From Crassaminicella profunda (GTDB lineage Bacteria > Bacillota > Clostridia > Peptostreptococcales > Thermotaleaceae): a stretch of DNA of 64,000 nt. The stretch is from the NCBI RefSeq assembly GCF_019884785.1, contig NZ_CP082326.1:2969355-3033354 (forward strand). Direction: 5' to 3'. Positions 654-17,998 of this stretch are shown piece by piece. Below the pieces are notes generated by a model, which searched no databases, was not told where the DNA came from, and was given only the letters and a program-made list of their open reading frames with translations. The translations under genes and the position numbers were made by a program. Numbering within the stretch: position 1 is the first letter of the stretch; each line of letters starts with the position of its first letter.

Positions 654-666
654 ACAGATCACCTCA

Positions 667-1485: not shown

Positions 1486-1491
1486 AGGTGG

Positions 1492-2145
1492 CTACTCCTT
1501 ATTTTTTAGAATTTTTACCTTATCTCCATTTTTTAGGCCACTGGAATTTGCTTCATCCACATCTATATGCATTTCTAAGCTATACTTTGGGGATACTCGT
1601 ACTAATACATTTCCAAAAACAGTTCTTCTAATTCCTTTTGTTTCTACATCCACCATTTCCTTATCCCTTACACCATATGCTTTCGCTATTTCAGGAGTCA
1701 TATGTATATGTCTTAGTGCTGCAATAACCCCACAGTTTTTTGCCACACTTCCCTTTGGTCCTTTTATAAGAATCCCTGAGGTATTTTCGATTTTTCCTGA
1801 TTCTCTTATAAGTGGCTTGATCCCTAATTGATATCCATCTGATAAAGACACTTCTACTTGAGTAGCATCTCTTACAGGTCCTAGTATTCGTACTTTTTTA
1901 AAACTTCCTTTTGGTCCAATAATCTCTACCGTTTCATTTGCAGCAAATTGTCCAGGCTGACCTAAATCCTTTATCTTAGTCAATTCATATCCTTTTCCAA
2001 ATAAAAAATCAAGATCTTCCCTACGTAAATGCACATGCCTATTCGAAACACCTATAGGAACTAATCTTTCTTTATATTCCTTTAAAATGTTTTCTACTGC
2101 TCTTGTAATAACCCCTATCATCACATCTTTATTCTTTAAAGCCAT
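1492..2145 (-). CDS. pduL: Phosphate propanoyltransferase PduL
   Basis: PduL converts propionyl-CoA and phosphate to propionyl-phosphate inside the microcompartment, recycling CoA. The zinc-binding histidines are visible in SNRHVHL (about residue 38), RHIHMTPE (about 149) and EMHIDVDEAN near the C-terminus. The first 25 residues form an amphipathic helix typical of a luminal encapsulation peptide. I chose the ATG at 2145 (217 aa): the in-frame GTG at 2157 falls inside the GAGGTGA ribosome site, which is correctly spaced for 2145. It lies between pduJ and eutJ. Confidence 0.93.
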   Translation of the reverse strand: MALKNKDVMIGVITRAVENILKEYKERLVPIGVSNRHVHLRREDLDFLFGKGYELTKIKDLGQPGQFAANETVEIIGPKGSFKKVRILGPVRDATQVEVSLSDGYQLGIKPLIRESGKIENTSGILIKGPKGSVAKNCGVIAALRHIHMTPEIAKAYGVRDKEMVDVETKGIRRTVFGNVLVRVSPKYSLEMHIDVDEANSSGLKNGDKVKILKNKE

Positions 2146-2186
2146 AGCAAAGCTCACCTCAATTCTTCTATTGCATTAACGAATAT

Positions 2187-2477
2187 TTATTCCTGCTCAT
2201 CATATTCTATCTGAGGCAATATCTTTTCTACATCTGTATGCGGCCTTGGAATCACATGCACAGATACAAGTTCTCCAACTTTATCTGCTGCCGCAGCCCC
2301 TGCATCTGTAGCTGCTTTTACTGCACCAACATCTCCTCTAACCATTACCGTTACAAGTCCCGAACCTATTTTTTCATATCCAATCAAAACTACATTGGCT
2401 GACTTTGTCATAGCATCTGCCGCTTCAATAGAACCTACTAATCCTTTTGTTTCAATCATCCCTAAAGCTTGATTCAT
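2187..2477 (-). CDS. pduJ: BMC shell hexamer, PduA/PduJ type
   Basis: A 96-aa single BMC domain starting [20 protein letters not shown], with the conserved pore-lining and edge segment and the [15 protein letters not shown]-terminus. It is nearly identical to the PduA at 9204-9482, so the two are paralogous flat shell hexamers. The short tail rich in acidic residues (YDEQE) is the main difference. Its ATG overlaps the pduK TGA stop (ATGA), so the two are translationally coupled. The name pduJ follows its position after pduK; A and J cannot be told apart from sequence alone. Confidence 0.93.
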
Positions 2478-3091
2478 TTATTAAATCTCCCTTCTTTTTT
2501 TAATTCTTCATAATGAATACACATTTTTCTAAGATCCCCTTTTTTTCTAGGGCATTTTGGATCTTTACAAATATTACATATATCTGATTCTAAAATTTCA
2601 TTTTCATATATTTCAAGTTCTTCATAATCTTCTTCAATATTTCCATTGTCCTCTTCAAGTTCTTCTAATATTAATTCCTTATGATCCTCTATATGTTCTA
2701 TTTCAGTATTTTCAAGATCCTCATCTTCCTTATTAGAAACCATGACATTTTCTGGTTCAGCTTCAACATTTATATCTTCTTTTTTATCTTCATATCTTTC
2801 TAATCCAACGGTTTCATCATTACAAATAAGTATCTTTAATCCATCACTGGGTCTTGGAATAACAAGATTTCCCCATACTTGATTGACTTTACTGGCACGA
2901 ATAACCGCTGCATGTATTGCAGCTTTTACAGCACCAACAGTTCCCTCAATTTTAACAGTAGTCATTCCATTCCCTTTTGTTAACTCATATCCAATTATTT
3001 TAATATTTGCAGACTTAACTGCCGTATCAGCCGCTTCTATGGCAGCTGCCAATCCTACTGTTTCTATAATTCCTAAGGCGAGCTTTGACAA
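2474..3091 (-). CDS. pduK: BMC shell protein PduK with C-terminal cysteine motif
   Basis: The first ~90 residues are a BMC domain ([19 protein letters not shown]...VIPRPSDGL). A strongly acidic linker of about 70 residues (roughly 105-175) follows. The C-terminus carries four cysteines in [14 protein letters not shown]...RKMC, like the cysteine-rich tail of Salmonella PduK, which may bind iron-sulfur or zinc. The gene starts with TTG at 3091 behind GGGAGGTG and ends in a 4-bp overlap with pduJ. PduK is a minor shell component. The length (205 aa) exceeds a plain hexamer because of the linker. Confidence 0.88.
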
Positions 3092-3109
3092 AGTTACACC
3101 TCCCTAAAG

Positions 3110-3568
3110 CTACCCTAACTTCATTCTTGCAATAATCCGTTTTACGATAGTCCTTATCTCTTCCTCTAGGTTCTCTTTACTCAAACAAATATTATCTTCA
3201 ACCTCATGATCTTCAATATTTTTAAAGGGAATTCTTTTTACCAGTCTAGCTGCATTTACACCTAAAGTTCTCATCAAAAAATCATTCGAACTCGTACTAA
3301 TCTCATATAGGGGTTTATCTTTTTTTAGCTTGATATAATGAATTATAATACTTTCACAATCAACACCAATCCCGACACCTAATACTGATTGTTCACAAGC
3401 TGCATATGCAAGCTGTACTGCATCCCTATGTTCTTTTAGTTGTATTTCATAAGGAATCCCTTCTTCTTCTATTCCCCAAAAAATTTCCTTGAAGTCTGAT
3501 ATATTGTTTAAACTTTCATTGTAGTAAATATGGATAGAAGGCTTTTGTTGGTTATAACTTAATCTCAT
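3110..3568 (-). CDS. pduH: Diol dehydratase reactivase small subunit PduH
   Basis: PduH pairs with PduG to release damaged cobalamin from the dehydratase. The core SIHIYYNES...IEEEGIPYEI...AYAACEQSVLGVGIGVD matches the PduH/DdrB family, which shares its fold with the dehydratase medium subunit. At 152 aa it is longer than the roughly 116-aa enteric protein: an extra C-terminal part follows LGVNAARLVKRIPF. Its ATG overlaps the pduG stop (ATGA), implying coupled, stoichiometric translation of GH. Confidence 0.9.
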   Translation of the reverse strand: MRLSYNQQKPSIHIYYNESLNNISDFKEIFWGIEEEGIPYEIQLKEHRDAVQLAYAACEQSVLGVGIGVDCESIIIHYIKLKKDKPLYEISTSSNDFLMRTLGVNAARLVKRIPFKNIEDHEVEDNICLSKENLEEEIRTIVKRIIARMKLG

Positions 3569-5391
3569 ACTTTCTCACCTTCTTTTAATGCAAGAATCAA
3601 ACCTGTAGCCACTGCATTTCTAGGTCCCTCACATCCACGTATATTGCCTCTTCCTGCAACAATACTATATTTTGATAATGCATCTGTGACCAATTGAGGA
3701 ACCTCAAAATCTAACGCTGACCCTCCTACTAATACAACAAACTCTATATCTCTAACATTGCCAGTAGGACTTACCATACTTAATGCTCTAATAGCATTTG
3801 TAACAAATACCTTTTCTTTTGCGGACTTTCTAACTGTTTGTATTCTTTCTAAAGAGTTTTGTCCTGATATAGGAACCATCACTGATTCTTTTAATATGAC
3901 TACCTTTGCAAAAGTCTTAGGATCAAGGGGATCTTCAAAAAACTGAACCGTTCCATCTTCATGCCTTATATGAAAAAGACTTTCTACTTTTGCAAGGGGA
4001 TATTTTTTTATATCCTCTGCTAAGTCAAAATCATTCAATCCCAATTCTGAATTAATGAGCATAGTCACCATATTTCCTGCCCCGGCAAGATGAATGGAGG
4101 TTATTTTATTTCCTTTATCTATAATAGATGCATCTGTAGATCCTGCTCCCATATCAAGTATTGCCAGAGGTTTATTGCTACCGGGAGTAGTCAGTGCTCC
4201 TCTTATAGCCATGTCTGCTTCTACTCCTCCAACCTCTACAGCTACATGCATATCCTTTTCTAAAATTTCTGCAATCATGTTCATTTGAAGCCGATCAGCT
4301 TTCACCATAGCAGCTATCCCCACTGCATTTTCAAGGGAAAACTCCTTTGCAATTCCGCCTCTTATTTTCTGCGGTATAAATGTATCTACTGCTAAAAGAT
4401 CTTGGATCTTAATAGAAGTAAAATTCTGTCCTGTAAGCTCTGACATTACCTGTCTTACTCTTTCTAGCATACCTCCTGCATTTGTTCCAGCCTGCCCCTT
4501 TACATCCTCTATAGGAGATGCTTGTTTTAATACTTCCATTATTTTTTCTGCCCCATCATCTACATTCACTTCTAATTTCTTTTGTTTACCAATTACATAG
4601 ATAATACCAGCAGCAATTCTTTTTTCTTTTACATCTCCCTTAGGTGTTTTAATAACAACTGCAGATCTATTTCCAATGAGTGCTCTTGATATGGGCACAA
4701 TCTGCTTCGTTTCTTCAGAACTTAACTCAAATACCGTAGCAATACCATATGGATTAGATAAAACCTCCACTACGCCTCCTGTAGGCGCTACCTCTATGGC
4801 AGCTTTCATAGCATTTGGCACCTTGTTAATGAGGGATACCTCATCAACAATAGGTATTTTTTTGTTGAGTCTATTATTGATAAGTACCCCATCATCCCTT
4901 TGTACAATAGCTCCTTTGATCTGCCCACCCATTTTTACATAATCATTTATGGTTTTAGCAGCATCTTCAAAGTCTACATCCTTAGAGATGATTACAATCA
5001 ATGCTTCAGATTCATTGATTCTCCCTAAATCTTTTATATTGACGGTCATTCCTACTCCTATACCTACTCCACCTGGTGTGGATGGATTGTGACCAATCAT
5101 GGTTGATTCTGTAATAATCGTTTCCGTAATGGTTTCCATGGCCACATCTCCAATAACAGGTGCAGCTTCATTAATTCTTATCAAATCTAAATCATTGGTT
5201 TTAAGTTCTACTTGATCTAATGCTTTTTTCAAGGAAGCAACAACACCATGAATATTTTGCTTAGTTCCTTTTATTCCTGTGGTATCTACAATAGCACTAG
5301 ATAAAAATTCTACCTCACCATTTTCATATATCCTTGATAATGCAACCTCCGTTGTTGCATTTCCAATATCCACTCCAGCAACAATTTTCAT
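3565..5391 (-). CDS. pduG: Diol dehydratase reactivase large subunit PduG
   Basis: A 608-aa ATP-dependent reactivating factor for B12-dependent diol/glycerol dehydratase. It has an actin-like ATPase fold: AGVDIGNATTEVAL at residues 5-18, ILDMGAGSTDASI near 410 and VLVGGSALDFEVP near 560. Length equals that of the Klebsiella DdrA/PduG proteins. The start has a GGAGG-type site upstream. It follows pduE by 23 bp and overlaps pduH by 4 bp. No key motif is missing. Confidence 0.96.
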   Translation of the reverse strand: MKIVAGVDIGNATTEVALSRIYENGEVEFLSSAIVDTTGIKGTKQNIHGVVASLKKALDQVELKTNDLDLIRINEAAPVIGDVAMETITETIITESTMIGHNPSTPGGVGIGVGMTVNIKDLGRINESEALIVIISKDVDFEDAAKTINDYVKMGGQIKGAIVQRDDGVLINNRLNKKIPIVDEVSLINKVPNAMKAAIEVAPTGGVVEVLSNPYGIATVFELSSEETKQIVPISRALIGNRSAVVIKTPKGDVKEKRIAAGIIYVIGKQKKLEVNVDDGAEKIMEVLKQASPIEDVKGQAGTNAGGMLERVRQVMSELTGQNFTSIKIQDLLAVDTFIPQKIRGGIAKEFSLENAVGIAAMVKADRLQMNMIAEILEKDMHVAVEVGGVEADMAIRGALTTPGSNKPLAILDMGAGSTDASIIDKGNKITSIHLAGAGNMVTMLINSELGLNDFDLAEDIKKYPLAKVESLFHIRHEDGTVQFFEDPLDPKTFAKVVILKESVMVPISGQNSLERIQTVRKSAKEKVFVTNAIRALSMVSPTGNVRDIEFVVLVGGSALDFEVPQLVTDALSKYSIVAGRGNIRGCEGPRNAVATGLILALKEGEKV

Positions 5392-5414
5392 GGTTCTTCC
5401 TCCATTCCTTTGAT

Positions 5415-5924
5415 TTACATATTCTCTTTAAGTCTCTTTCTTTCTTGATATACATGGGCTGCCTCTCTTACAAAATCTCCATTTATTTTAGCACCATACT
5501 TACTCTCTAGTTCCTCTGCTATATGAAGAAGGTCTTCCTTTGTAGAACGATAAGGTCTTAAGGCATTATAGATCTCAAGAATCCTATCATCCGGTATTTT
5601 TGTAAGCTCAGCTGCTCTTCTTAAATTCCTTGCAAAAGCATCTCTTCCTACAGATTCAGCTACTTGAGCTTGATACTCTAAAACTTCAGCTGAAATTCTC
5701 ACATCATCTGATTGAATCTGTCCGTTCATGGCTTTCTCTATAGTAATCTCATCTAAACTTTTACCGGTAGGACTTTTTACAAGTTCTGGTCTTTTTGTTC
5801 CAAGAGGATAATCCTCTTTGGAAACTTTTGAAATAGTCTGATTGGACTTTGTTTGTTTTGGAACTTCCCCCATAGAAGCCATTACTTCCTTTACAATTTG
5901 TTCAATCAATTTAGTATCCATCAT
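5415..5924 (-). CDS. pduE: Propanediol dehydratase small subunit PduE
   Basis: The gamma subunit of the (alpha-beta-gamma)2 B12-dependent dehydratase, 169 aa. The N-terminal TKLIEQIVKEVMASMG is an amphipathic helix of the type that targets the enzyme to the compartment lumen. The body (DYPLGTKRPELVKSPTGK, VRISAEVLEYQAQVAE, NLRRAAELTKIPDD, YNALRPYRST) is typical of PduE/DhaB3. A GGGGGTG ribosome site precedes ATGATG. It lies between pduD and pduG. Confidence 0.95.
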   Translation of the reverse strand: MMDTKLIEQIVKEVMASMGEVPKQTKSNQTISKVSKEDYPLGTKRPELVKSPTGKSLDEITIEKAMNGQIQSDDVRISAEVLEYQAQVAESVGRDAFARNLRRAAELTKIPDDRILEIYNALRPYRSTKEDLLHIAEELESKYGAKINGDFVREAAHVYQERKRLKENM

Positions 5925-5940
5925 TACGATTCACCCCCAT

Positions 5941-6630
5941 TTATTTAAAATTCACTTTAAGTTCTATTGGTTTTGCGCCTAATTTTACATATTGTGTTTC
6001 TTTTATATGTAAGAGTGCCGCTTTTGCTTGATATTTAGGTCTAGCCATTTGATCATTTCTCACTGGCACTGGTGTTGGAGACTGACCTTTAGCATACTGA
6101 GCAGCATTCTTACCAATTTGTCTAAAAGTTTCTTCATCAAGAAGTGGTGCTTGTGGAAATAGCTCTAAATTATTCAGTGGTAATAAATCTTTTTGATGTA
6201 TAACCGTAGTTCCTTTAGATTGAATACCAATACCTATTCCTGAACCACTAATCTTTGCAGCATCATTAGCAGCAAAAGAAACATCTGATGTTCTAAGAAT
6301 TCTAACGATCCTTGCAGTGAGTCCCTCTTCTTCTATTCCTGCTATAATTTCTCTAAGCACACTATAATGTGGTAACTCTACGATGGTTTTCGTTTGATGT
6401 ACTCCAAAAGCTGGACAAACCCCTATCACAACTTCATCACTTCTTGTTCCAACTTTTGCTTCTCCTATTTCTTCTAAGACTAATTCTTTCGTATTTTCAG
6501 GAGAAAAAACTTTAATGTTTGTTTTTTCTTCCACATGATTATTTAAAGTTACTTCTTTTTTTTCTTCCATTCCAAAATCCTTTAAAACTTCCTCTATTAC
6601 ACTTCTAACTAAACTTTCACTAATAGCCAC
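5941..6630 (-). CDS. pduD: Propanediol dehydratase medium subunit PduD
   Basis: The beta subunit, which with PduC binds adenosylcobalamin. Residues such as [36 protein letters not shown] and [21 protein letters not shown] match PduD/DhaB2. The N-terminus ([17 protein letters not shown]) is an amphipathic encapsulation helix followed by a variable linker. I prefer GTG at 6630 because AGGGGTG is then 6 bp away; an in-frame GTG at 6639 overlaps the ribosome site and would add three residues. It lies 29 bp after pduC. Confidence 0.93.
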
Positions 6631-6659
6631 TTCATACACCCCTTTCTAAATAAAATCTT

Positions 6660-8321
6660 TTAATAATCTTCTGAACTTACTGCATTAGCTATGTTTTTAA
6701 TTTCATCCCATCTCTCAGGAGATAATCGATATCCTGTTCCAGGTCCCATATAATCATTACAGTTATTGACTGCACTAATTACATTAAACTCCTTATCAAT
6801 GATTGCAGATGTATGTAAATAATCTCCTGCAATTCTTTGCTTAAGCATATTAAAGACGTTTTGTGCAACATCTTTGTATCCTCTATTATTTAAAGCTTTC
6901 ACAACATCAATACCTGTGATGCCTTTGTTCATCATTTCTTCTGCTGCTTTAAGATCCTCTACTACATTTCTATTTGGCATATCTTTACTTCCATGAGCAT
7001 AGGTAGCAGCTTCCACTTCTTCATCTGTAATAGCAGGAAGTCCAAGCTCATCAAATACAGTTTGAAGTGCTCTAGCAGCTTTGTTTCTAATTTTTATGAC
7101 TTCATCTTCAGATACAGGTCGCAAGCCCCCATCTACCATAAGATCTCTTTGTAAGATATTGTAATCATCAAAATCTTCAGCATCGAAATTTGATCCTGCA
7201 AACATATTGTCGTAATTCGGTACAGCACTATATCCAGAGAAAATAAAATCCGTTCCAGGAAGCATTTGCATCAGCGTTCTTGCTGTTTTTCTAATGTCTG
7301 AATGGGTAAATGTTTGATCATTCCCAGAGGCAACTTCTAAATCAAGCATTGTAGTAATCAAATTTTCTGCAAGGACAGCTCTAATACCTGATGGTACCCC
7401 ACCTGGAACTCCTATACAGCTAATAGATCCATTTTGAAGTCCCTGAACGCCTGCTCCTTTTGTTACATAGATACATCTAGCCTCTAGATATAACATGGAT
7501 TTTCCTTCTGCATATCCCATTAAAACTTCTGAACCTGTTCCAGAGGTGAATCTCATTTTAAGCCCTCTTGATGCATATGCAGATGCTAAGAAAGATTTAG
7601 ACCAAGGAGTATCATCTCCATCTATAAATACAGGCTCAGTTCCATAAACAGAAACCGTTTCAGCATAATTCGTAAGACCTCTCATACCAATTAAAAGTTC
7701 TGTAGCTTCCTCTACTGCACATTGTGTAAGAATTCCACCTCTCCCCGTTTGTGCTCCTACCATTAAGGATAAAGCATTAAAAGGAGCATAACGAACAATC
7801 CCTACTGTTGTTTCCAGCTCATCAAATCCTCTTAATGCTGCTTCAGCCGCATCTGCAGCGATTTGAACTGGATGATCCTTAACATTTGTTACATGAGCTT
7901 GATTAGAAGGCGTTTTTCTAGCTCTCATCTTTTGAAGGGACATCATCATTTCAACTACATTCATACTTCCTACAACTTCAACGATTTTAGCAGGTGTCAT
8001 TCCGGTAGTAAGCTTTATAATTTCATCCCTAGATACATTTACATCCACAAGCATCTTTGAAAGCTTAAGTGAATCTATTTTCATAACTTCTTCAGCCTTT
8101 TCTAAATTCATTGCATAATCTGCAATAAATCTATCAAGCATATCAAATTCGTCTCTTTTCTTTCCATCTAGCTCTACTACACGTCCATTTTCCATCTTTA
8201 TACTTGGTTTTGGATCATTTGGACTATCCATAGCAATCAGACCAACTTCTGCCCACTCTTTCACAAAACCATCTTGATTAACAGGACGATTTGCCAATAT
8301 TTCAAAACGTTTAGACTTCAT
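6660..8321 (-). CDS. pduC: Propanediol (diol/glycerol) dehydratase large subunit PduC
   Basis: The catalytic alpha subunit of adenosylcobalamin-dependent diol dehydratase, which turns 1,2-propanediol into propionaldehyde (glycerol into 3-hydroxypropionaldehyde). The 553-aa sequence keeps the Klebsiella numbering: His143, Glu170, Glu221, Gln296, Asp335 and Ser362 all fall at the expected active-site positions. No truncation or frame break. GGGAGGG precedes the ATG. Preference for propanediol over glycerol is inferred from the surrounding pdu-type shell genes, since the two enzyme types overlap in sequence. Confidence 0.97.
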   Translation of the reverse strand: MKSKRFEILANRPVNQDGFVKEWAEVGLIAMDSPNDPKPSIKMENGRVVELDGKKRDEFDMLDRFIADYAMNLEKAEEVMKIDSLKLSKMLVDVNVSRDEIIKLTTGMTPAKIVEVVGSMNVVEMMMSLQKMRARKTPSNQAHVTNVKDHPVQIAADAAEAALRGFDELETTVGIVRYAPFNALSLMVGAQTGRGGILTQCAVEEATELLIGMRGLTNYAETVSVYGTEPVFIDGDDTPWSKSFLASAYASRGLKMRFTSGTGSEVLMGYAEGKSMLYLEARCIYVTKGAGVQGLQNGSISCIGVPGGVPSGIRAVLAENLITTMLDLEVASGNDQTFTHSDIRKTARTLMQMLPGTDFIFSGYSAVPNYDNMFAGSNFDAEDFDDYNILQRDLMVDGGLRPVSEDEVIKIRNKAARALQTVFDELGLPAITDEEVEAATYAHGSKDMPNRNVVEDLKAAEEMMNKGITGIDVVKALNNRGYKDVAQNVFNMLKQRIAGDYLHTSAIIDKEFNVISAVNNCNDYMGPGTGYRLSPERWDEIKNIANAVSSEDY

Positions 8322-8349
8322 ATCTTTCCCTCCCTATGATTTCAAAATC

Positions 8350-9162
8350 TTATATATATGGGGTTGTGGTAGACTTAGCTTCTCCTCCCAAAGCTTGTAA
8401 TGCCTGAAGACCTACTTCTTTCGCTGCAATAAGGGCTTGCCTTACTGCTCCAGAATCTCCACAAATCTGTAAAATAGCCTCATTTGAATAACTTGTTCCT
8501 CCATTTCCAGGGGAACCATATCCTAAAACTTCAACATTCGCAGCTTTAACTGCCGTATCAGATATCAAAACACCAATAGCTGCTGGCGCACCTACAATTA
8601 AGCCAAACGCTTTCCCGACAGGTGCATTAAAAGCCTTATTACAAGCAAAACTTGCTCTAGCAGTATATTGAAACTCTAAATGTCCTGCATCATTTCCATA
8701 AACATCTCCAAAGGTTCTGTCTAATTCTTTCAATGTTACTTCTACTGCACGTCTTGCATCAGATACATCTTCTGCTCCAAATATAATTAATGATCCGTGC
8801 CCTGCGCCCCCTTTAGTATCCCTTGGAAGTTCTATGCTGATAATTTCTGTATTGGTAGCCTTTACAGCCTCATCTGCTGCCATAATTTGAGGACCAGCAC
8901 CTGTACGTCCTCCTATAATTCCTATAGAACGATACTTCTTTTCAAACTTCATAGCCTCAAGAAGCTGTGCGTCCACATTTGCAATAACAAATCCTATGGT
9001 CTCTCCTATTGCTGTACCTACAAATTCAGTTAAACTACAGTATGATGGTTGACATTCTTCAGCTTTGCATTCCTCAACCACTTCTTGGTTAAAATTTGAA
9101 TCCCCTGTTCCTACCTTCTTCATCACTTCTTCCATAATCTTTTCCATTAATTGTTCTTTCAC
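8350..9162 (-). CDS. pduB: Tandem-BMC shell trimer PduB
   Basis: Two fused BMC domains form the pseudohexameric trimer of the Pdu shell (FVGTAIGETIGFVIANVD, GGRTGAGPQIMAADEAV, then APVGKAFGLIVGAPAAIGVL and GYGSPGNGGTS). I chose the GTG at 9162 (270 aa, the usual PduB length) because GGAGGTG lies 6 bp upstream; the in-frame ATG at 9198 has no ribosome site. The resulting N-terminus, KEQLMEKIMEEVMKKVG, is an amphipathic helix like the PduB extension that attaches cargo to the shell. No internal PduB' start is evident. Confidence 0.92.
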   Translation of the reverse strand: MKEQLMEKIMEEVMKKVGTGDSNFNQEVVEECKAEECQPSYCSLTEFVGTAIGETIGFVIANVDAQLLEAMKFEKKYRSIGIIGGRTGAGPQIMAADEAVKATNTEIISIELPRDTKGGAGHGSLIIFGAEDVSDARRAVEVTLKELDRTFGDVYGNDAGHLEFQYTARASFACNKAFNAPVGKAFGLIVGAPAAIGVLISDTAVKAANVEVLGYGSPGNGGTSYSNEAILQICGDSGAVRQALIAAKEVGLQALQALGGEAKSTTTPYI

Positions 9163-9203
9163 AATTTGCACCTCCATATTTTTTTGAGATAAAATCATTC
9201 ATT

Positions 9204-9482
9204 CTATTTATTCGGTAATATTTTCTCAACATCTGTATGAGGTCTTGGAATTACATGAATAGAAATCACTTGACCTACTTTTTGAGCCGCTGCTGCTCCT
9301 GCATCTGTAGCCGCTTTTACTGCCCCTACATCCCCTCTTACCATAACCGTAACAAGTCCTGATCCAATTTTTTCATAACCTACTAGCCCTACATTTGCTG
9401 CTTTTACCATAGCATCAGCAGCTTCAATAGCTCCAACTAGTCCCTTTGTTTCTACCATTCCCAAAGCTTCTCTTGTCATCAT
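9204..9482 (-). CDS. pduA: BMC shell hexamer PduA
   Basis: The first gene of the Pdu operon. It encodes a single ~92-aa BMC domain: [20 protein letters not shown]...[19 protein letters not shown]. PduA is a main flat hexamer whose pore passes propanediol. The open frame extends upstream to 9620 but has no homology there; AAGGAGGAG directly precedes tandem ATG codons at 9482 and 9479, and the second has the better spacing. It is a paralogue of pduJ at 2187. Confidence 0.95.
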
Positions 9483-9551
9483 TTCTCCTCCTTTTAAAGT
9501 GAATTTTAAAATTACATTTACAAATTTGAAAATTCTTAAATCTATATTTTC

Positions 9552-9580
9552 ATTATAGTTGATCCTTTTCACAATAATAA
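9552..9580 (-). promoter_or_regulatory. Predicted pdu operon promoter
   Basis: A perfect TATAAT (-10, 9552-9557) lies 17 bp from a weak TTATTA (-35, 9575-9580), about 70 bp before the pduA start. The poor -35 fits a promoter that needs an activator, and paired repeats sit directly upstream. Confidence 0.6.
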
Positions 9581-9583
9581 TTG

Positions 9584-9616
9584 AATATATTGCCCATGTT
9601 CTGTAACAAATTGCCC
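9584..9616 (-). promoter_or_regulatory. Paired direct repeats, likely binding site of the AraC-type response regulator
   Basis: On the minus strand GGGCAATTTGTT (9605-9616) and GGGCAATATATT (9584-9595) match at 10 of 12 positions and start exactly 21 bp apart, two helical turns. The proximal copy ends 3 bp before the -35. This geometry is typical of AraC-family activators. A similar pair occurs at 12980-13019. Confidence 0.55.
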
Positions 9617-9664
9617 TCATCTAACGGGTATTTTTTTGTTCTTTACTGATAATTTTTTGCATAA

Positions 9665-9703
9665 AAAAAGATCTTTCTAAATAAATTAAAAAGATCTTTT
9701 GGA
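9665..9703 (-). terminator. Rho-independent terminator after the response regulator
   Basis: AAAAGATCTTTT and AGAAAGATCTTTTTTT form a hairpin with a T-run on the minus strand just after the stop at 9709. It separates the regulatory genes from pduA. Confidence 0.7.
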
Positions 9704-9708
9704 AAAGC

Positions 9709-10812
9709 TTATATACTCCATTTTCCATTTATTACAAACGTATTTTTTTTAAGAATATTTTCTTCTATTATATTTTTTTCTGAATTTCTATATTCTGTAG
9801 GTGTAACCCCTGTAATCTTCTTAAAAACCTTACTAAAATAATTTGGTTCATTATATGAAAGTTCTAATGCAATATTGATGATTGGCATATCCGTATTTTC
9901 TAATAATTCTTTAGCCATTTCCATTTTTTTATTAACAATATACGTACTAAAATTAATCCCTACCTTCTTTTTAAACAATTTACTTAAATAATAAGGACTA
10001 ATAGATCCGAATTCAGCCACCTCCTCTAACGTAATATTTTTTTTACAATTTTTTTCAATATAATCTAGAATCCTCTTGATATCATTTTGGTAAATATTTT
10101 TTTTAGAACGAAGTAATTCATTAAAAATCAAATCTAAAATTTCTATCAAATTTCCTTGTGCTTTATATTGATTGCAAAACACATCAAAATTATTTTTATA
10201 TTGTCCCTTGTATACTTCAATGTTCTTATGATTGTATATTCCTAAGTCTAACGCCATATGTAGCAAATGATCTATTACTTCTTTTAAATTTTTAACTATA
10301 CTTTGTGTATCATTTTCATATGTATCAAATATGTGCTTGATCATTCCTTTTAGCATATATTTTGAATTTTTATAATCTACCTTCTGAATAGTTATTTTTA
10401 ATTCATTCATCATGCTCACTATATCTACATCATCCGTTTTCATTTGCTTCATTTGATTACGAATAGACTCTATAATCCTACTAGGTCTAGCTGGCTTTAA
10501 TATATAATCATCTACATGAGCTTTAATGGCTTTATGAGCCAAATCGAATTCATCATATGCTGTCAAAATAAGAATCGCTATATTGGGATTTCTTTTTTTT
10601 ATTCTTTCACTAGCTTCTATTCCATTCATCCCATAAACCTTAATATCCATCAATATGAAGTGTGGCTTTAACTTCTCAGCTAATTCCACAGCTTCTAAAC
10701 CAGAGCCTGTTTCTCCAACAATTTCTATAGTATCTTGTAGGTCTTTTTCTATAATCATTTTTAAAGCTTTTCTTTCCAGCTCTTCATCTTCAACAATAAG
10801 TAATCTATGCAT
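9709..10812 (-). CDS. Response regulator, receiver plus AraC-type DNA-binding domain (YesN-like)
   Basis: A CheY-like receiver (residues about 1-120: LLIVEDEE, phosphorylated Asp in FILMDIKVYGMNG, Lys in DDYILKPARP), a middle linker, and a C-terminal AraC HTH pair (about 255-350: ILDYIEKNCKKNITLEEVAE, ISPYYLSKLFKK, NEPNYFSKVFKKITG). The ATG at 10812 fits the AGGTGG site; a GTG at 10821 overlaps it. It overlaps the kinase gene by 8 bp, so the two form a two-component pair. Its position before pduA makes it the likely activator of the Pdu operon, replacing enteric PocR. Confidence 0.92.
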   Translation of the reverse strand: MHRLLIVEDEELERKALKMIIEKDLQDTIEIVGETGSGLEAVELAEKLKPHFILMDIKVYGMNGIEASERIKKRNPNIAILILTAYDEFDLAHKAIKAHVDDYILKPARPSRIIESIRNQMKQMKTDDVDIVSMMNELKITIQKVDYKNSKYMLKGMIKHIFDTYENDTQSIVKNLKEVIDHLLHMALDLGIYNHKNIEVYKGQYKNNFDVFCNQYKAQGNLIEILDLIFNELLRSKKNIYQNDIKRILDYIEKNCKKNITLEEVAEFGSISPYYLSKLFKKKVGINFSTYIVNKKMEMAKELLENTDMPIINIALELSYNEPNYFSKVFKKITGVTPTEYRNSEKNIIEENILKKNTFVINGKWSI

Positions 10813-12061
10813 TACAACCACCTACACCCTTATTGATTGGTATTTGCATTTTCACCGTTGTTCCTTTTTGGAAATCGCTATAAATATCAAATACAGCATT
10901 TCCCTCAAAATAATACGCAAGTCTCTTCTTTAAATTCTTTATGCCAATGCCCGTAGAAAGTATATTTTTATCATCCTGCTTATTTTCATGAAAAAGATTA
11001 TTTAACTTTTCTTTTGACATGCCAACCCCATCATCCTTTATTTTAATTACTACTGCATTATTTATCTTATAAAGAGAAAGTTCTATCATTCCTCCCTCTT
11101 TCTTTTTTTCTATACCATGGTTAATGGCATTTTCTACAATAGGCTGCAAAAGCATAAAAGGAATCCTGGCATTCTTGATTTCATCCTCTACCTCAATCTT
11201 ATACTTTAGTCGATCTCCAAGTCTCATAGATTGAATCTTTAAATAGTTTTGTATATATTGTATTTCATCTTGAAGACATACAAGGTGGGTTGAATTTTTT
11301 TTAAGGGTATATCTCAGTAATTCTGCAAAGGAAAAAACAATTTCTTGAGTAGAAAAAGCATTTTCAAGTAATGCCAGTCTTGCAATGGTATTGAGTACAT
11401 TAAATAAAAAATGTGGGTTCATTTGAGATTGAAGAGATTTGATCTCTGAAACTTTTAAAGAACTTTCAAGTTCAGACCTTATTTTCATTTCTTTCATAAG
11501 CGCTACATTTTTTTTGTTTAATTCTTCTTGTATTAAATTCACCAAACCCTTTTCTACAAAATAATTTGAAATAACAAACATCATATCTGCAGCCGCTACT
11601 AGTTTATTATAGGGGATAGGTTTGATAGCTTCATGATGTTTTAAAAGTTCCTCATCTTCTTTCCATGATAATGTATTCTGTGCAGTAAGATGATTTAAAT
11701 GTACTTCTTCATCATCCTCTACTTTAACTTGTCCTGCTAAAATAGCTCCCAAATATTGTCCTTTTATAATAATAGGTATGGCAAAATCAATGAGTCCTGC
11801 ATGACATTTATAGATATAAGGTTTTCCACTTCTAGCAGCCTCAATTCCTCCATGTGCATCCGATCGAAGGCACGCTTCATTACATCCTGAATTTTTTCTA
11901 AAAAGCGTACAGAATCGAGAAAAATTGCTATACTTAGTGATAGGTCGTCCCATATAGTCTACTGTCACAGCCGCAAAACCAGTAGCTTCTGAAAACTTAT
12001 CTTGTATTTCTTGAAGTACATCCACATCTATACATTCGTTAATAATTGGAAAATTATCCAT
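10805..12061 (-). CDS. PocR-domain sensor histidine kinase
   Basis: 418 aa with no membrane segment. Residues about 10-170 are a PocR ligand-binding domain, with the cysteine cluster RFCTLF...SGCNEACLRSD...YIYKCHAGL and IPIIIKGQYLGAILAGQV. A coiled linker (about 170-215) leads to a LytS/YesM-type kinase domain: phospho-accepting His in LQSQMNPHFLFNVLN, N box in PIVENAINHGI, G boxes in IKDDGVGM and TGIGIKNLKKRL. In enterics PocR senses propanediol for pdu/cob control; here the same domain sits on a cytosolic kinase. The cysteines could hold a metal or redox centre (inference). Confidence 0.92.
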   Translation of the reverse strand: MDNFPIINECIDVDVLQEIQDKFSEATGFAAVTVDYMGRPITKYSNFSRFCTLFRKNSGCNEACLRSDAHGGIEAARSGKPYIYKCHAGLIDFAIPIIIKGQYLGAILAGQVKVEDDEEVHLNHLTAQNTLSWKEDEELLKHHEAIKPIPYNKLVAAADMMFVISNYFVEKGLVNLIQEELNKKNVALMKEMKIRSELESSLKVSEIKSLQSQMNPHFLFNVLNTIARLALLENAFSTQEIVFSFAELLRYTLKKNSTHLVCLQDEIQYIQNYLKIQSMRLGDRLKYKIEVEDEIKNARIPFMLLQPIVENAINHGIEKKKEGGMIELSLYKINNAVVIKIKDDGVGMSKEKLNNLFHENKQDDKNILSTGIGIKNLKKRLAYYFEGNAVFDIYSDFQKGTTVKMQIPINKGVGGCNA

Positions 12062-12112
12062 AATTTATCTCCCCTAAATATTTTAGTGAGAAATCATATT
12101 GTTTAAATATTT

Positions 12113-12796
12113 CTAATGAATTAGAAAAAGGATCCCCAAAAGAACCATATTAACTATAAACAGTCCTAGACTTATAAAAAAACATTTTGATTTCACAACA
12201 CATGTGCGAGAATTTTGATGAATCATTTTACTCAAATCCCTATGGGCTAACTTAAATTGATAGTCTTTATTAATGTTAATTGGATATTCTTCTTTTTCAT
12301 TTCGTTTTAATAACTTTTGATAAACTAATAACAATAAAGTTTCCTCATCAATCTCCGCCATATCTTCATAATTATAAATATTCTTAGAAGTATATTGGGC
12401 TAAATCTTGTTTTTCTAATACATGATTTCTTTTATTATCTGTATTTCTTCTGATTACTACCCGAGAGTCCGTAAATAAGGCATCTTTCTTTTCTTGTTTT
12501 TCTTCCTCATCTTCACTGTTATTTGTTAATTTCTCTAGATCATTCTTTTTTTCCTCCTTTTTTCTATTTGATTTTTGAAAAAAGAATATCAGTAATTTCT
12601 TTCCAATAAAAGAATATGCAGAAATCATTATAGAAATAACACATAAAATGAGTAATATTTTCTTTCCTGATAACAGGGAATCAAAAACAAATGATATTAA
12701 TCCTAAGTTTAAAGCAATTAACCCGCTGTTTCTTGCCTCTTCGAATACAATCCAATTGTTTGTTCTATCCAATATATTATTTAATTCTTCTAACAT
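12113..12796 (-). CDS. Membrane protein of unknown function in the PocR two-component operon
   Basis: 227 aa with hydrophobic segments near residues 25-40 and 43-60, a long charged cytoplasmic middle (Lys/Glu-rich, about 70-110), and a final membrane helix at about 200-225. I do not recognise a family. GGAGG precedes the ATG. It lies 51 bp upstream of the kinase on the same strand, with no terminator between, so it is probably cotranscribed with the sensor and regulator. A role as membrane anchor or accessory sensor for the soluble kinase is possible but is inference. Confidence 0.75.
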   Translation of the reverse strand: MLEELNNILDRTNNWIVFEEARNSGLIALNLGLISFVFDSLLSGKKILLILCVISIMISAYSFIGKKLLIFFFQKSNRKKEEKKNDLEKLTNNSEDEEEKQEKKDALFTDSRVVIRRNTDNKRNHVLEKQDLAQYTSKNIYNYEDMAEIDEETLLLLVYQKLLKRNEKEEYPININKDYQFKLAHRDLSKMIHQNSRTCVVKSKCFFISLGLFIVNMVLLGILFLIH

Positions 12797-13054
12797 ATTT
12801 TTGTTTTCCTCCTATCTTAATCATTTTTAATTGATGGAATAATAATCCTATTAAAAATCACACTGACTTTATCTATACTCTAATCATAACGTTATTTTTA
12901 CAAAAAACTTTGATACTAATTTGTTCCTTTTCTATAACTATTTGTCTAATCCTTTTCTAAATTTTTATGGTTTTGAATATAGCAGTAATTTCTTGTTCCC
13001 TAGCAGTAATTTTTTGCCCTATTCTCCATTATAAAATAATCATTATTCTTCAAA
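12797..13054. other. Intergenic leader region of the PocR regulatory operon
   Basis: A gene-free A+T-rich stretch (the gap runs to 13119). It holds the GGAGG site of the 12796 gene, the paired repeats at 12980-13019 and, beyond 13055, the psd terminator. No clear -10/-35 pair was found. Confidence 0.5.
12980..13019 (-). promoter_or_regulatory. Second pair of regulator repeats
   Basis: On the minus strand GGGCAAAAAATTACTGCTA (13001-13019) and GAACAAGAAATTACTGCTA (12980-12998) start 21 bp apart and share 10 identical bases at the 3' end. Alignment with the pduA repeats gives GRRCAA-N4-TT with the same spacing, suggesting that the same AraC-type regulator binds and controls its own operon. Confidence 0.5.
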
Positions 13055-13097
13055 ACAAAAGGAACCTATAGATTTTGTAGAAACATCTATAAGCTCC
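13055..13097 (-). terminator. Terminator after psd
   Basis: On the minus strand GGAGCTTATAGAT pairs (with wobbles) with ATCTATAGGTTCC around an 11-base loop, followed by TTTTGTTTT. Confidence 0.65.
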
Positions 13098-13119
13098 ATC
13101 CCTCGCTTTTATTCACAAT

Positions 13120-14013
13120 TCATATTTTTTTCCCTATACACTCTCCCATATTTACCTTTGTTTCTATTCCTTTTTCTGTGTTCTTTAAAATGTCTTCATC
13201 AATCTTTACTTGCCCTTCCTTTAAAAATAAAACAACTGTTGATCCTCCAAATTTAAAATATCCTTTTTCATCTCCTTTATGAACATAACTTTTCAGATCA
13301 TATGTCTGTATGATAGATCCTACACAAGTTGCACCAACCTCAACCAATGCCATCTTACCAAAATTATCAGATTCAAAGCTGGTTATTTCTCTTTTATTTT
13401 GACAATACACTTTGGCTATTTTTTCAAGGGCTATGGGATTCACCGAATAATACAACCCTTTTATCTTTTTGGCTTCATCAGGCACGCCACTATCTGGAAA
13501 ATGAAATCTATGATAATCTGCTGGGCATAGTCTCACTACAATACATACTCCCTGATCATAAACTTGTGCCATACTCTTATCATGAAAAAATTCTTCTAAA
13601 GTATAAAAAGAACCTTTCACTTGGATTACCTGATCTTTACGAATATTTTCATAGGCAAATACACGTCCATCTGCTGGAGAAATTAAATGATTTTTTTCTA
13701 TGGGGATAGGTCTTGATTCCTTTTTTAATTTTCTTGCAAAAAAATCATTAAAGTTTTTATATTCCCCAATATTTTCTCTTTCCGCTTCGCCCATATCAAT
13801 AGCAAGATTTTCTACAAATTGGGCTATCTTTTTTTTGCTAAAGACAGTATCCTGAAGTTTTCCGTATATGGATGAAAACATCTTTTTCTTAACAAAAGTT
13901 TCAAGAATCGTATTTCCCATACTCGTATCATAAATCCATCTTAAAAATTGATCTCCTGCTACAATTTCTTTTATCTTTTCGCCACTTTTTCTTTCTATAT
14001 AATAAATATCCAT
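13120..14013 (-). CDS. psd: Phosphatidylserine decarboxylase
   Basis: Converts phosphatidylserine to phosphatidylethanolamine at the membrane. The 297-aa proenzyme has the self-cleavage site FGGST (Ser about 255, becoming the pyruvoyl group), the catalytic region [21 protein letters not shown] and [10 protein letters not shown] near residue 75. The pattern fits the class II form common in Clostridia. It stands alone, without pssA beside it. The ATG has a GGATGATG site. Confidence 0.95.
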
Positions 14014-14235
14014 CTATCATCATCCTTATCCATTTTATAATTCTATTTGATTGTATCATATCTTCATCCATAGGTTAATAAATTATTCATTTTCAATTCC
14101 TCATGTATAGATTATGTAGTTCTTTGGAAATTCTATATTTAGATATAAATATCTAACTTACTCATTTAAATTTTATGATTGGATAACTATACTAAAAATT
14201 TTATTCCCCTACACTAAAAAACTTATCATTCATAA

Positions 14236-15618
<1,383 letters not shown>

Positions 15619-15671
15619 AAAAGGCTGTAGGGAAAATGCACATTTTTTGAATTAAAATGTATTTTTAATAA

Positions 15672-15723
15672 AAAGACATTTTATCAAAACATTGAAATTA
15701 CTTAGTTTTGATAAAATGTCTTT
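15672..15723. terminator. Bidirectional terminator between gdhA and the HD-GYP gene
   Basis: A perfect 19-bp inverted repeat (15672-15690 and 15705-15723) with a 14-base loop lies between the two converging genes; T-rich flanks occur on both strands. Confidence 0.85.
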
Positions 15724-15761
15724 AAGTATTTTGAATACTTATTTTATATTTCTCCACAACC

Positions 15762-16928
15762 TCATTCTATAACACTTTTAAAAGAATTTTTCTCTCCCAT
15801 TTTACGAGGAACATTTACATTAGGTACTTCATAGATTAATTCTTCAATAACCACATTCTTTTCTTTCATCAAATCAACTGTCTTCATTTCTACTGTAACA
15901 GCCCTTTGTTTTACGACTTTCACTTTAGGTCTTAATGGAAACTCTGATTGTATTTCTTCTACTACCCCAATCTCTCCATTACTTAATTTTACCATGCTTC
16001 CTACTGGATATGGAATTACTTTCTTTGCAAAAAGTTTTACCATCTGAAAATCAAAATATCTGCCTGCACTGCCCATAATAAATTCTAATGCTTCATTTGG
16101 AGCCACTGCTGGTTTATATGGCGTATCAGAAACCATGGCATCATAAGCATCTGTAATTGCAACAATTTTTGCTAATTTATTTATTTTATCCTCTTTGTAT
16201 CCATTGGGATATCCTGTTCCATCTACTTTTTCATGATGTTGATAGGCAATCAATTTAATATTTGCATTTAATTCATAATTTTCTTTTAAATAATCATAGC
16301 CCTTCTTTGAATGTTGCTTAATGATTTTAAATTCTTCCGCTGTTAACATTCCTCTTTTCAAAAGAATTTCTTTCGGTATAAAGGCTTTGCCAACATCATG
16401 CAACATTGCTCCTATACATAAATCATATAATTCATTTTTATTAAGTCCAATTTCTATTCCTAAAATCAAAGATAATACAGCAACATTTACAGAATGTTGA
16501 TAAGTATAATTATCCAAACTCTTAATATCCACTAAATTGATTAATACATTACCGCTATCAAAAACTTCTTCTGTTATTTCTTTAGAAATTTTATTTAAAG
16601 ATTGAATATTTTTTTCTCCTGTATCCTTAAGCCTTTTCGCTGCTATCGTATTATTGTTCTGATTCATATACTTATTTAAATGATTAAATGTGTCCTTAAT
16701 AGTTTTGATTGCTGTATTTCTTAGTCTAGGACTAATGATATCTTCAATCTCATTATCACTATATTCATCATTAATATATATACTGTATATTCCATTTCCT
16801 TCTATTTTCTTTACAAGATTTTGGCTCAATTCAACACCTTTTTGAAGCAATACTCTATTATTCATGTCATTTAAAGTTTGTGCTAAATACATCCCATCTT
16901 TTACAAAACGAGTTGGTATAAGTCTCAT
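15762..16928 (-). CDS. HD-GYP domain protein, predicted cyclic-di-GMP phosphodiesterase
   Basis: N-terminal about 110 residues (RLIPTRFVKDGMYLAQTLND) form a DUF3391-like leader, followed by an HD-GYP domain. The metal ligands are present in MLHDVGKAFIPK, QHSKKGYDYL and QHHEKVDGTGYPNG, so it should be active on cyclic-di-GMP. A C-terminal segment (PVGSMVKLSNGEIGVV...KVVKQ) is common in this subfamily. I chose ATG at 16928, 8 bp after AAGGAG; ATG at 16934 is too close. It may oppose the GGDEF protein at 25675-27594. Confidence 0.92.
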   Translation of the reverse strand: MRLIPTRFVKDGMYLAQTLNDMNNRVLLQKGVELSQNLVKKIEGNGIYSIYINDEYSDNEIEDIISPRLRNTAIKTIKDTFNHLNKYMNQNNNTIAAKRLKDTGEKNIQSLNKISKEITEEVFDSGNVLINLVDIKSLDNYTYQHSVNVAVLSLILGIEIGLNKNELYDLCIGAMLHDVGKAFIPKEILLKRGMLTAEEFKIIKQHSKKGYDYLKENYELNANIKLIAYQHHEKVDGTGYPNGYKEDKINKLAKIVAITDAYDAMVSDTPYKPAVAPNEALEFIMGSAGRYFDFQMVKLFAKKVIPYPVGSMVKLSNGEIGVVEEIQSEFPLRPKVKVVKQRAVTVEMKTVDLMKEKNVVIEELIYEVPNVNVPRKMGEKNSFKSVIE

Positions 16929-17050
16929 AATCATTACTCCTTGTTTGGATATTAGATAGTTCTTTATTTTTCTACCTAACGATAGTTATCATTATAACAA
17001 ATTTTGTCGGTATTTGTTAAGTAGATAAAACAATTATTTTTCTAAACCTA

Positions 17051-17950
17051 TTATTCATCCTTTGTATTTAGAACATGAAAATTCCTTAAAATGACTTTTT
17101 TTCCTCTCCAGCTAAAGGATCTATCTCCATATTTCCTTTTAAATGCTTTATTAGATAGCTCTTCCACATCCTTTTCCTTAAGGGTATACACTAAATTCTC
17201 CTGAAATTCTTTTATATTGGTATGCGCAATGTTTTGATTGTGTGGACACACATCTTGACAAATATCACATCCAAATATCATTTTATTTTTCCTTAAAATA
17301 TTTATTTCTTCCTCCGTCAAAGCTTCTTTTTTTTGTGTAATAAAAGATATACACTTTCTTGGATCTACTTCAAAGTTTCCTAGGATCGCATTTCCTGGAC
17401 ATTTTTTTATACATTCGCCACATTGAATACAAGTTTGATTTAAAGGCCTATCCACTTCAAAAGGATAGTTATTGATCATATATCCAATAAACACATAAGA
17501 GCCATATTGATCTGTTAGGATATGATTATTTATACCAAAATACCCTAATCCTGCTGAATAGGCTAAATATCGATCCACAAGAGGTCCTGTATCTACAAAT
17601 GGTTCATAATCAAAGCCTTGCATATGACTTTTTAAAAATTCTCCTATTTTTTGAAGTTTTTCTTTGATAATAATATGATAGTCCAAACCATAGGTATATT
17701 TAGCAATATTAGCTTCCTTCCGATTTCCTGTAAAATAAGGAAATAAACATACTATTATGGATGCTGCATCTTTCATCGTTTCTTTCGGATCAACTCTCTT
17801 TTTTAAATCTTTTTCCTCCATCCCTGTAATATATCCTTTTTCTATTCTGTGCTTTAATATTTTTTCTAAATCTTTATAAGGAACTACTGGTGCAATTCCT
17901 ACATTATCTATATGCAATTTTTTACAAAATGTCTCTAGTTTTTTTTTCAC
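17051..17950 (-). CDS. queG: Epoxyqueuosine reductase QueG
   Basis: Final step of queuosine tRNA modification, using cobalamin and two [4Fe-4S] clusters. The cluster cysteines are in CIQCGECIKKCPG, RKCISF and CDICQDVCPHN. The active-site region reads VDTGPLVDRYLA...GLGYFGINNH. At 299 aa it lacks the C-terminal HEAT-like repeats of the roughly 380-aa E. coli and Bacillus proteins, as in other short clostridial forms. The start is GTG with GGAG 8 bp upstream. Being another cobalamin enzyme, it depends on the same cofactor as PduC. Confidence 0.88.
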   Translation of the reverse strand: MKKKLETFCKKLHIDNVGIAPVVPYKDLEKILKHRIEKGYITGMEEKDLKKRVDPKETMKDAASIIVCLFPYFTGNRKEANIAKYTYGLDYHIIIKEKLQKIGEFLKSHMQGFDYEPFVDTGPLVDRYLAYSAGLGYFGINNHILTDQYGSYVFIGYMINNYPFEVDRPLNQTCIQCGECIKKCPGNAILGNFEVDPRKCISFITQKKEALTEEEINILRKNKMIFGCDICQDVCPHNQNIAHTNIKEFQENLVYTLKEKDVEELSNKAFKRKYGDRSFSWRGKKVILRNFHVLNTKDE

Positions 17951-17998
17951 CTTTACTACTCCGTCTCTTTAACATATTTTAAATTTGACAAAATATCT

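Follow-up and report, generated by a model that had tools for sequence, protein, structure and literature searches.

The araI1-I2 operator of the E. coli arabinose operon consists of two direct half-sites with a period of 21 bp, the downstream one lying at the -35 element, and is read by an AraC-type DNA-binding domain. AraC is itself the receptor for arabinose and forms a loop to araO2.

Regarding 1,2-propanediol utilization (pdu), the described system closest to the one considered here is that of A. woodii, in which the regulator Awo_c25920, with acetyl phosphate, shifts a 291-bp fragment from upstream of pduA and a 399-bp fragment from upstream of the kinase gene in electrophoretic mobility shift assays (EMSA) and in which the 291-bp pduA-upstream region confers 25-fold induction by 1,2-propanediol on a reporter; the available text of that report presents the EMSA fragments without located binding sites (PMC7593272). 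In the GRM3 locus of C. ljungdahlii, the P1,2-PD promoter is induced more than 40-fold by 1,2-propanediol and, in the excerpt available, is proposed by its authors to be a putative sigma-54 promoter (PMC12016505). A PocR-domain histidine kinase is described for the PDU1D loci of the BMC taxonomy, where the system is said to resemble one of C. butyricum (PMC4207490). A search of the openly licensed literature, a scope outside which most of the subscription literature lies, found no mapped operator for this type of regulator.

The window analysed here is a stretch of 64,000 nt from the 4.59-Mb genome of Crassaminicella profunda (contig NZ_CP082326.1, positions 2,969,355 to 3,033,354). An earlier note on this DNA had described two 12-bp direct repeats before the pdu promoter as a site for an AraC-type activator. 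Comparative analysis suggests, with a probability of roughly 85%, that these repeats form the half nearest the promoter of an operator with four half-sites, which the adjacent AraC-type response regulator would recognise. Both the kind of regulator and the geometry of the operator are known; it is the DNA code that is newly read.

Materials and Methods

A search with the window's kinase as query (E up to 1e-60) gave matches in 20 of 391 genomes of the class and 11 of 59 genomes of relatives, both counts including the window genome, as well as in 50 of 206 genomes of family f46 (Clostridium) and 36 of 40 of family f59. The closest kinases found were those of two Marinisporobacter MAGs (loci L120 and L121), with 83% identity. 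One hundred wider loci and the window, 101 in total, were oriented alike, and 15 loci were added later, of which L220 was analysed. Four locus types were distinguished: regulator followed by pduA, regulator followed by pduC, pdu genes divergent from the kinase, and no pdu genes alongside.

Near-duplicates were pruned by shared 8-mers, leaving 26 of 31 training promoters, 20 of 24 held-out promoters and 30 of 36 kinase-upstream regions; 46 promoters were kept for the counts of the distance to the -10, and two "pduB" divergent loci (L180, L183) were excluded from promoter counts. The EM motif search modelled two occurrences of a single 13-bp matrix separated by a set lag, which was varied from 14 to 40. 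The training set comprised 25 non-redundant promoters of family f46 and one (L132) from another family of the window's order, with none from the window's own family, which was placed together with f88, f59 and others among the held-out promoters. For genome-wide searches, 69 scored pairs were reduced to 36 non-redundant ones, from which two models were derived, R1 (27 pairs and the window's proximal pair added by hand; the window's three pairs and f59 relatives are included) and the sequence-only R2 (18 pairs, without the window's family and without f59). As controls, 13 pduC loci were taken from genomes in which the kinase search had given no match at 1e-60; one of these was dropped as it had too little upstream sequence. 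In the alignment of 96 regulators, residue 274 is a gap in four, two of which were tabulated as "-".

Results

Genes of the Locus

The gene order on the minus strand is a gene for a 227-aa protein, the kinase, the regulator, a hairpin, the promoter and then pduA, B, C, D onward (Table 1). The Pfam domains of the kinase and regulator agree with the neighbouring two-component system with an AraC-type DNA-binding domain that the earlier note had reported, and a PocR-domain histidine kinase and its partner receiver/AraC-HTH regulator adjoining pduA are both features of PDU1D-type loci. One-component control of the enteric PocR type was not found at this locus, the PocR domain being in the kinase and the HTH in the regulator. 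Among the aligned regulators, an acceptor-type Asp56 is present in 91/96 and Lys106 in 92/96. Solved relatives of the regulator HTH include the response regulator 6swi, the AraC DNA-binding domain 2k9s (second-best), MarA, SoxS and Rob. By eye, the 227-aa protein has hydrophobic ends and an acidic middle; it is perhaps a membrane protein feeding the kinase. Within positions 1-20000 of the window, neither a tRNA nor an Rfam match at the gathering score was found, the pdu leader included, so that no riboswitch of a known RNA family was detected there.

The minus strand upstream of pduA reads GGGCAATTTGTTACAGAACATGGGCAATATATTCAATTATTATTGTGAAAAGGATCAACTATAATG. Both 12-mers of the earlier note, GGGCAATTTGTT (9616-9605) and GGGCAATATATT (9595-9584), are present with a start-to-start distance of 21 bp and 10/12 identical positions, as are the weak -35 and the perfect -10 that it had placed between them and pduA. 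The conserved C of the four putative pdu half-sites lies at positions 9592, 9613, 9638 and 9659 (steps of 21, 25 and 21 bp), and the -10 starts at 9557, 35 bp from the C of half-site 1.

Table 1. Features of the pdu locus and of its putative operator arrays in the window.
Feature	Sequence	Position	Strand	Evidence
pduC, diol dehydratase large subunit		6660..8321	-	Pfam Dehydratase_LU; sole match in the window genome
pduA, BMC shell protein, first gene of pdu operon		9204..9482	-	Pfam BMC 5.3e-30
-10 hexamer, pdu promoter	TATAAT	9552..9557	-	Sequence; 6/6 identical in three genomes
Weak -35-like element adjoining half-site 1, 17-bp spacer	TTATTA	9575..9580	-	Sequence
Half-site 1, proximal, pdu operator (putative)	GGCAATATATTCA	9582..9594	-	8.2 bits, training matrix; 13/13 identical in window, L120, L121
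Half-site 2, pdu operator (putative)	GGCAATTTGTTAC	9603..9615	-	21 bp upstream of half-site 1; 3.4 bits alone; 12/13 identical, three genomes
Half-site 3, pdu operator (putative)	AACAAAAAAATAC	9628..9640	-	25 bp upstream of half-site 2; 9.9 bits; 10/13 identical, three genomes
Half-site 4, pdu operator (putative)	TGCAAAAAATTAT	9649..9661	-	21 bp upstream of half-site 3; 1.0 bit alone; 12/13 identical
Terminator-like hairpin and U tract, after regulator gene		9666..9700	-	-15.8 kcal/mol vs -7.6 in shuffles, z -3.4
Response regulator, receiver and AraC-type HTH		9709..10821	-	Pfam Response_reg 5.1e-25, HTH_18 1.7e-20
Histidine kinase, N-terminal PocR sensory domain		10805..12061	-	Pfam PocR 1.4e-49 (168 bits), His_kinase, HATPase_c
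227-aa protein, first gene of regulator operon		12113..12796	-	No Pfam match; by eye membrane-bound; kept in L120, L121
-10 hexamer, regulator operon	TATGAT	12883..12888	-	Sequence, conserved
Proximal half-site, regulator-operon operator (putative)	AACAAATTAGTAT	12913..12925	-	21 bp on from proximal-pair half-site; 5.7 bits; in conserved block
Proximal-pair half-site, regulator-operon operator (putative)	GACAAATAGTTAT	12934..12946	-	By eye and conservation; <2 bits; identical in window, L120, L121
Second distal half-site, regulator-operon operator (putative)	AACAAGAAATTAC	12985..12997	-	21 bp on from distal half-site
Distal half-site, regulator-operon operator (putative)	GGCAAAAAATTAC	13006..13018	-	Pair 12985-13018: 19.6 bits

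A Half-Site Motif With a 21-bp Lag

The EM search of the 26 training promoters revealed a half-site with the consensus gTCAAaAtAaTaC, the log-likelihood being 179.5 at lag 21, 152.0 at lag 24 and 51.4-118.2 at the other 25 lags; shuffled sets at lag 21 gave a mean of 39.3 and a maximum of 49.3 in 20 trials (with 12 seeds vs. 25 for the real set). With lags of 15-32, lag 21 also ranked top, with a similar core, when the promoters of pduC-type loci (n = 11), of divergent loci (n = 15) and of the held-out set (n = 20) were searched separately, at log-likelihoods of 94.8, 152.8 and 115.6 and medians over lags of 60.8, 57.8 and 76.1, respectively. When the training matrix was kept fixed and applied to the 20 held-out pduA promoters, the best pair had a median of 10.9 bits at lag 21 vs. 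0.9-4.8 bits at other lags, and at least 12 bits were reached by 8/20 promoters at lag 21 vs. 0-3 at other lags between 14 and 40. Direct half-sites with a 21-bp period, the arrangement of araI1-I2, are thus present in these promoters.

Conservation in related pdu promoters, which the earlier note had named as the check on its proposal, extends both to the 21-bp spacing and to the distance to the -10. Its GGGCAA core did not hold, GGG being absent from the distal copy of the two nearest relatives (GACAAT), nor did the view of a single repeat pair, the pdu promoter of the window having two pairs, with a further array before the regulator operon. The signature GGGCAA-N15-GGGCAA, allowing up to one mismatch, was rejected, as it is absent from the pdu promoters of L007, L008, L011-L015, L018, L025, L027, L028, L032 and L033 and among the promoters inspected occurs only in the window's own copies (L001-L003).

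In family f59, approximately 200-240 bp separate the lag-21 pair from the downstream pduA, and a different conserved element occupies the proximal position. The pduA promoters of this family (L200-L210) have a proximal block of their own, TATAAgAAyAGcaCAAGTAATTAyC, which lies approximately 25 bp upstream of TAAAAT and escapes the common matrix.

Association With the PocR-Kinase/AraC Regulator Family

Lag-21 pairs of 9 bits or more were detected at 43 of the 47 loci beside a kinase gene (19/22 in the held-out part), the exceptions being L136, L156, L210 and L216, and at one of the 12 usable pduC control loci (L313, 13.2 bits), these controls not being matched in kind because 0/13 show a shell-gene match near pduC in the stretch taken. 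Four kinase-bearing genomes in which pduC lies elsewhere (G205, G332, G318, G268) have pairs of 7.7-10.0 bits there, and in a further genome (G520) the best R1 match genome-wide is located approximately 150 bp upstream of a pduC gene that some 8 kb separate from the kinase gene.

In an A. woodii-like genome (G090), the regulator-pduA intergenic region measures exactly 291 bp, as does the published EMSA fragment. Among the lag-21 pairs on both strands of 18 kb, the top three comprise two within 150 bp upstream of the kinase gene and one in the 291-bp intergenic region. A genome-wide search (4.04 Mb) with model R2 places the kinase site first, at E 0.0014, and the site before pduA fourth, at E 0.2; with R1 the two rank first and second. 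Outside the main pdu cluster, the same genome has a reverse-oriented pair that lies approximately 100 bp upstream of a BMC-domain gene, next after which comes a PduV-EutP gene (L273, match near 1501).

Residue 274 of the regulator lies in the first recognition helix, in what we take to be the place of Trp42 of MarA, and its identity tracks position 2 of the half-site, Gln going with T (38/46) and Tyr or Cys with A or G (44/48). The Gln274 regulators beside an operator form nearly one clade, and the correlation is for that reason a lead rather than proof. A second, independent origin of Gln274 exists within the window's family (L123, L125); no convincing operator was found at these two loci, so that this origin is unusable as a test of the correlation.

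These data also bear on the possibility that the array binds another regulator controlling pdu, for instance a one-component AraC protein or a carbon-catabolite regulator, instead of the adjacent response regulator. The motif class is not unique to the two-component family, given that the best R1 match of the C. ljungdahlii-like genome G552, which is equally strong, is flanked by a one-component AraC gene on one side and an MFS transporter gene on the other (L266, near 1501), and related AraC proteins may therefore read similar half-sites. Nevertheless, the 43/47 vs. 1/12 association with the kinase-regulator pair, the presence of the motif before the regulator's own operon and the covariation of residue 274 with the half-site make such a regulator improbable, and the A. 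woodii regulator is described, in the text available, as binding both motif-bearing regions (PMC7593272). Recognition by the adjacent response regulator is the favoured reading.

The Repeats of the Window

Some 12-mer repeat of at least 10/12 identities at a lag of 12-40 is found in 724/1000 dinucleotide shuffles of the same A+T-rich intergenic region; the repeat alone is not significant because of this, and an argument from the 12-mers by themselves was discarded on these shuffle counts. GGGCAA-N10-20-GGGCAA occurs once in the window vs. 0.04 expected, for a pattern picked post hoc. Scored with the matrix trained without the window's family, the pair of half-sites 1 and 2, which is the 12-mer repeat pair, has 11.6 bits and ranks fourth among lag-21 pairs of the 64-kb window, and the pair of half-sites 3 and 4 (9628-9661), which the earlier note had missed, has 10.8 bits and ranks sixth. 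Each pair is carried mainly by one half-site (8.2 + 3.4 and 9.9 + 1.0 bits). The score of the best pair was reached in 8/2000 shuffles of the pdu intergenic region, and those of the best and second pair together in 0/2000.

Model R2 does not single out these sites: of its 11 matches within the window, the second is the distal pdu pair and the ninth is part of the regulator site, the 12-mer repeat pair being absent at E up to 1, and a search of the whole genome, in which 150 of 9038 candidates were scored, listed none of these sites up to an E of 3. With R1, whose ranking in this genome is partly circular because the window's three pairs belong to the model, two of the matches below the three pdu/regulator sites were looked at (L244, L247), both of which lie inside coding sequence, and hence no third target is claimed.

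Comparison with the two Marinisporobacter relatives showed that 47/52 positions of the four pdu half-sites are identical in the three genomes, vs. 43/73 of the other positions within 9540-9670; over the whole intergenic region, 100/151 non-half-site positions are identical. A functionless chance feature of A+T-rich intergenic DNA, towards which the frequency of equally good repeats in shuffles, the low scores of half-sites 2 and 4 on their own and the behaviour of R2 all point, is highly improbable in view of the de novo recovery of the lag-21 motif in three groups of promoters, the conservation of the half-sites and the co-occurrence of two such pairs.

Distance to the -10 Element

Among the 46 promoters, the most frequent distances from a half-site C to the -10 were 79 (20), 34 (18), 35 (14), 55 (14), 100 (13) and 56 bp (12), one promoter being able to count more than once; 26/46 promoters form the training set, but the -10 was unused in training. 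Over 500 permutations, the count never exceeded 15 at a single distance or 21 at two neighbouring ones, vs. 32 observed at 34/35 and 26 at 55/56. The distances 79 and 34 therefore lie above this range singly, and 34/35 and 55/56 do so as adjacent pairs; the count at 100 taken by itself stays within it. This layout can be understood as two pairs of half-sites 24 bp apart, the proximal one at 34/35 and 55/56 and the distal one at 79 and 100, which the lag-24 peak of the EM search fits. A downstream half-site at a fixed place by the -35 is found in both promoters of the window, at 35 bp; family f59 deviates.

In G552, the C. ljungdahlii-like genome, the promoter published as induced more than 40-fold by 1,2-propanediol corresponds to the 242 bp in front of the gene for the glycyl-radical dehydratase. 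This region has a half-site C at 101, 125 and 146 and a TAAAAT at 180, which gives lags of 24 and 21 bp and 34 bp to the -10. These positions presuppose translation from a TTG codon preceded by a ribosome site; if the later ATG codons that were tried are taken instead, the three half-sites fall outside the 242 bp. The sigma-54 core GG-N10-GC is absent from both strands of this 242-bp region with any of the three start codons tried, a result for this relative rather than for the window.

That the conserved blocks are promoter DNA only, in the form of A-tract UP elements and a sigma-54 or sigma-A core, would suit the A-rich half-sites and the putative sigma-54 assignment by the C. ljungdahlii authors in the excerpt available (PMC12016505) and is nonetheless the least likely reading considered, as one of the conserved letters is a C whose position is fixed, none of the other lags tried came close to that of 21 bp and GG-N10-GC was lacking in the 242 bp of G552.

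A Second Array and Putative Further Targets

Upstream of the regulator operon, the pair at 12985-13018 ranks first among the lag-21 pairs of the 64-kb window, with the matrix trained without the window's family, and its score is reached in 0/2000 shuffles of the intergenic region. The C of the proximal pair is at 12944 and 12923, the latter 35 bp before TATGAT. Since this array stands before the regulator's own operon, autoregulation is likely in the window. Such an arrangement is not general across loci: at least 12 bits at lag 21 were reached in 8/30 kinase-upstream regions (the window, L120 and six of f59) vs. up to 6 at another lag (lag 30), the de novo search of the 30 kinase-upstream regions gave no lag-21 peak, and none of those of pduC-type loci pass 12 bits with the fixed matrix.

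In other loci the motif was also detected before genes of the glycyl-radical dehydratase type (L160 at 7543, L137 at 6018, L132 at 10850 and L180 at 10780; oriented coordinates, Pfam) and before a major-intrinsic-protein gene (L147 at 6207; oriented coordinate, Pfam). The regulon therefore seems to include enzymes that are not B12-dependent and glycerol uptake.

Discussion

The earlier note had proposed an AraC-activator-like direct-repeat operator of the adjacent two-component pair. This stands as far as the lag and the distance to the -10 are conserved; the PocR kinases of PDU1D loci and binding by the A. woodii regulator are not new, both having already been published. The PocR domain and the HTH are distributed over two proteins, and the "phosphorelay" of the earlier note would be ordinary two-component phosphotransfer.

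Regarding the mechanism, the PocR domain of the kinase would sense 1,2-propanediol (perhaps also glycerol), as judged from the domain family, and the kinase would phosphorylate the regulator, for which the domains and the A. woodii protocol speak. Phosphorylated regulator dimers would then bind the direct repeats, which are two helical turns (21 bp) apart, each half-site presumably being read by both helix-turn-helices of one AraC domain. From the half-site by the weak -35, the regulator would bring sigma-A RNA polymerase to TATAAT in the manner of AraC at araI1-I2, and class-II activation at a promoter with a poor -35 and a good -10 is the most likely mode by this analogy. The second, upstream pair would strengthen binding, and the array before the regulator's operon would give positive autoregulation.

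We lean, with some reserve, towards a broader reading, according to which a family of PocR-kinase/AraC regulators across Clostridia would share one code, consisting of tandem pairs of a 13-bp half-site with a 21-bp period, a step of 24-25 bp from pair to pair and a distance of 34-35 bp to the -10, and employ it for dehydratases of unrelated chemistry (a B12 diol dehydratase in shells, a B12 dehydratase without adjoining shell genes and a glycyl-radical dehydratase), residue 274 would set the second base of the half-site and the propanediol promoter of C. ljungdahlii would be a sigma-A promoter with this operator rather than a sigma-54 promoter. The present analysis predicts, at base level, an operator for a regulator family whose binding regions were, in the literature found, resolved no further than fragments of 300-400 bp. 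On this basis, pdu, B12-dehydratase and glycyl-radical regulons can be predicted in further Clostridia, acetogens among them, and promoter parts inducible by propanediol come within reach. For a promoter that is already in use as a tool, the operator also points to a reading other than sigma-54.

Compared with araI1-I2, the array of the window has the same 21-bp direct repeats, with the downstream half-site by the -35 and an AraC-type activator expected; it differs in having four half-sites and an expected phosphorylated response regulator, in contrast to the arabinose binding and araO2 looping of AraC. Enteric PocR of Salmonella likewise combines a PocR sensory domain and an AraC-type HTH with propanediol induction of pdu, but in one polypeptide, whereas in the window the domains are split between a kinase and a response regulator. 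The PDU1D loci share the PocR-domain kinase within a pdu locus, and no operator is described in the available part of that report (PMC4207490). The P1,2-PD system of C. ljungdahlii resembles the window in having a kinase-regulator pair in the locus and in its half-site lags and -10 distance, and differs in driving a glycyl-radical dehydratase (Pfam PFL-like, Gly_radical), not a B12 enzyme. Awo_c25930/Awo_c25920 of A. woodii, a kinase and regulator encoded directly before pduA, correspond in this position to the pair of the window, which belongs to another order and has its pdu half-site pairs closer to pduA than the pair of the A. woodii-like genome.
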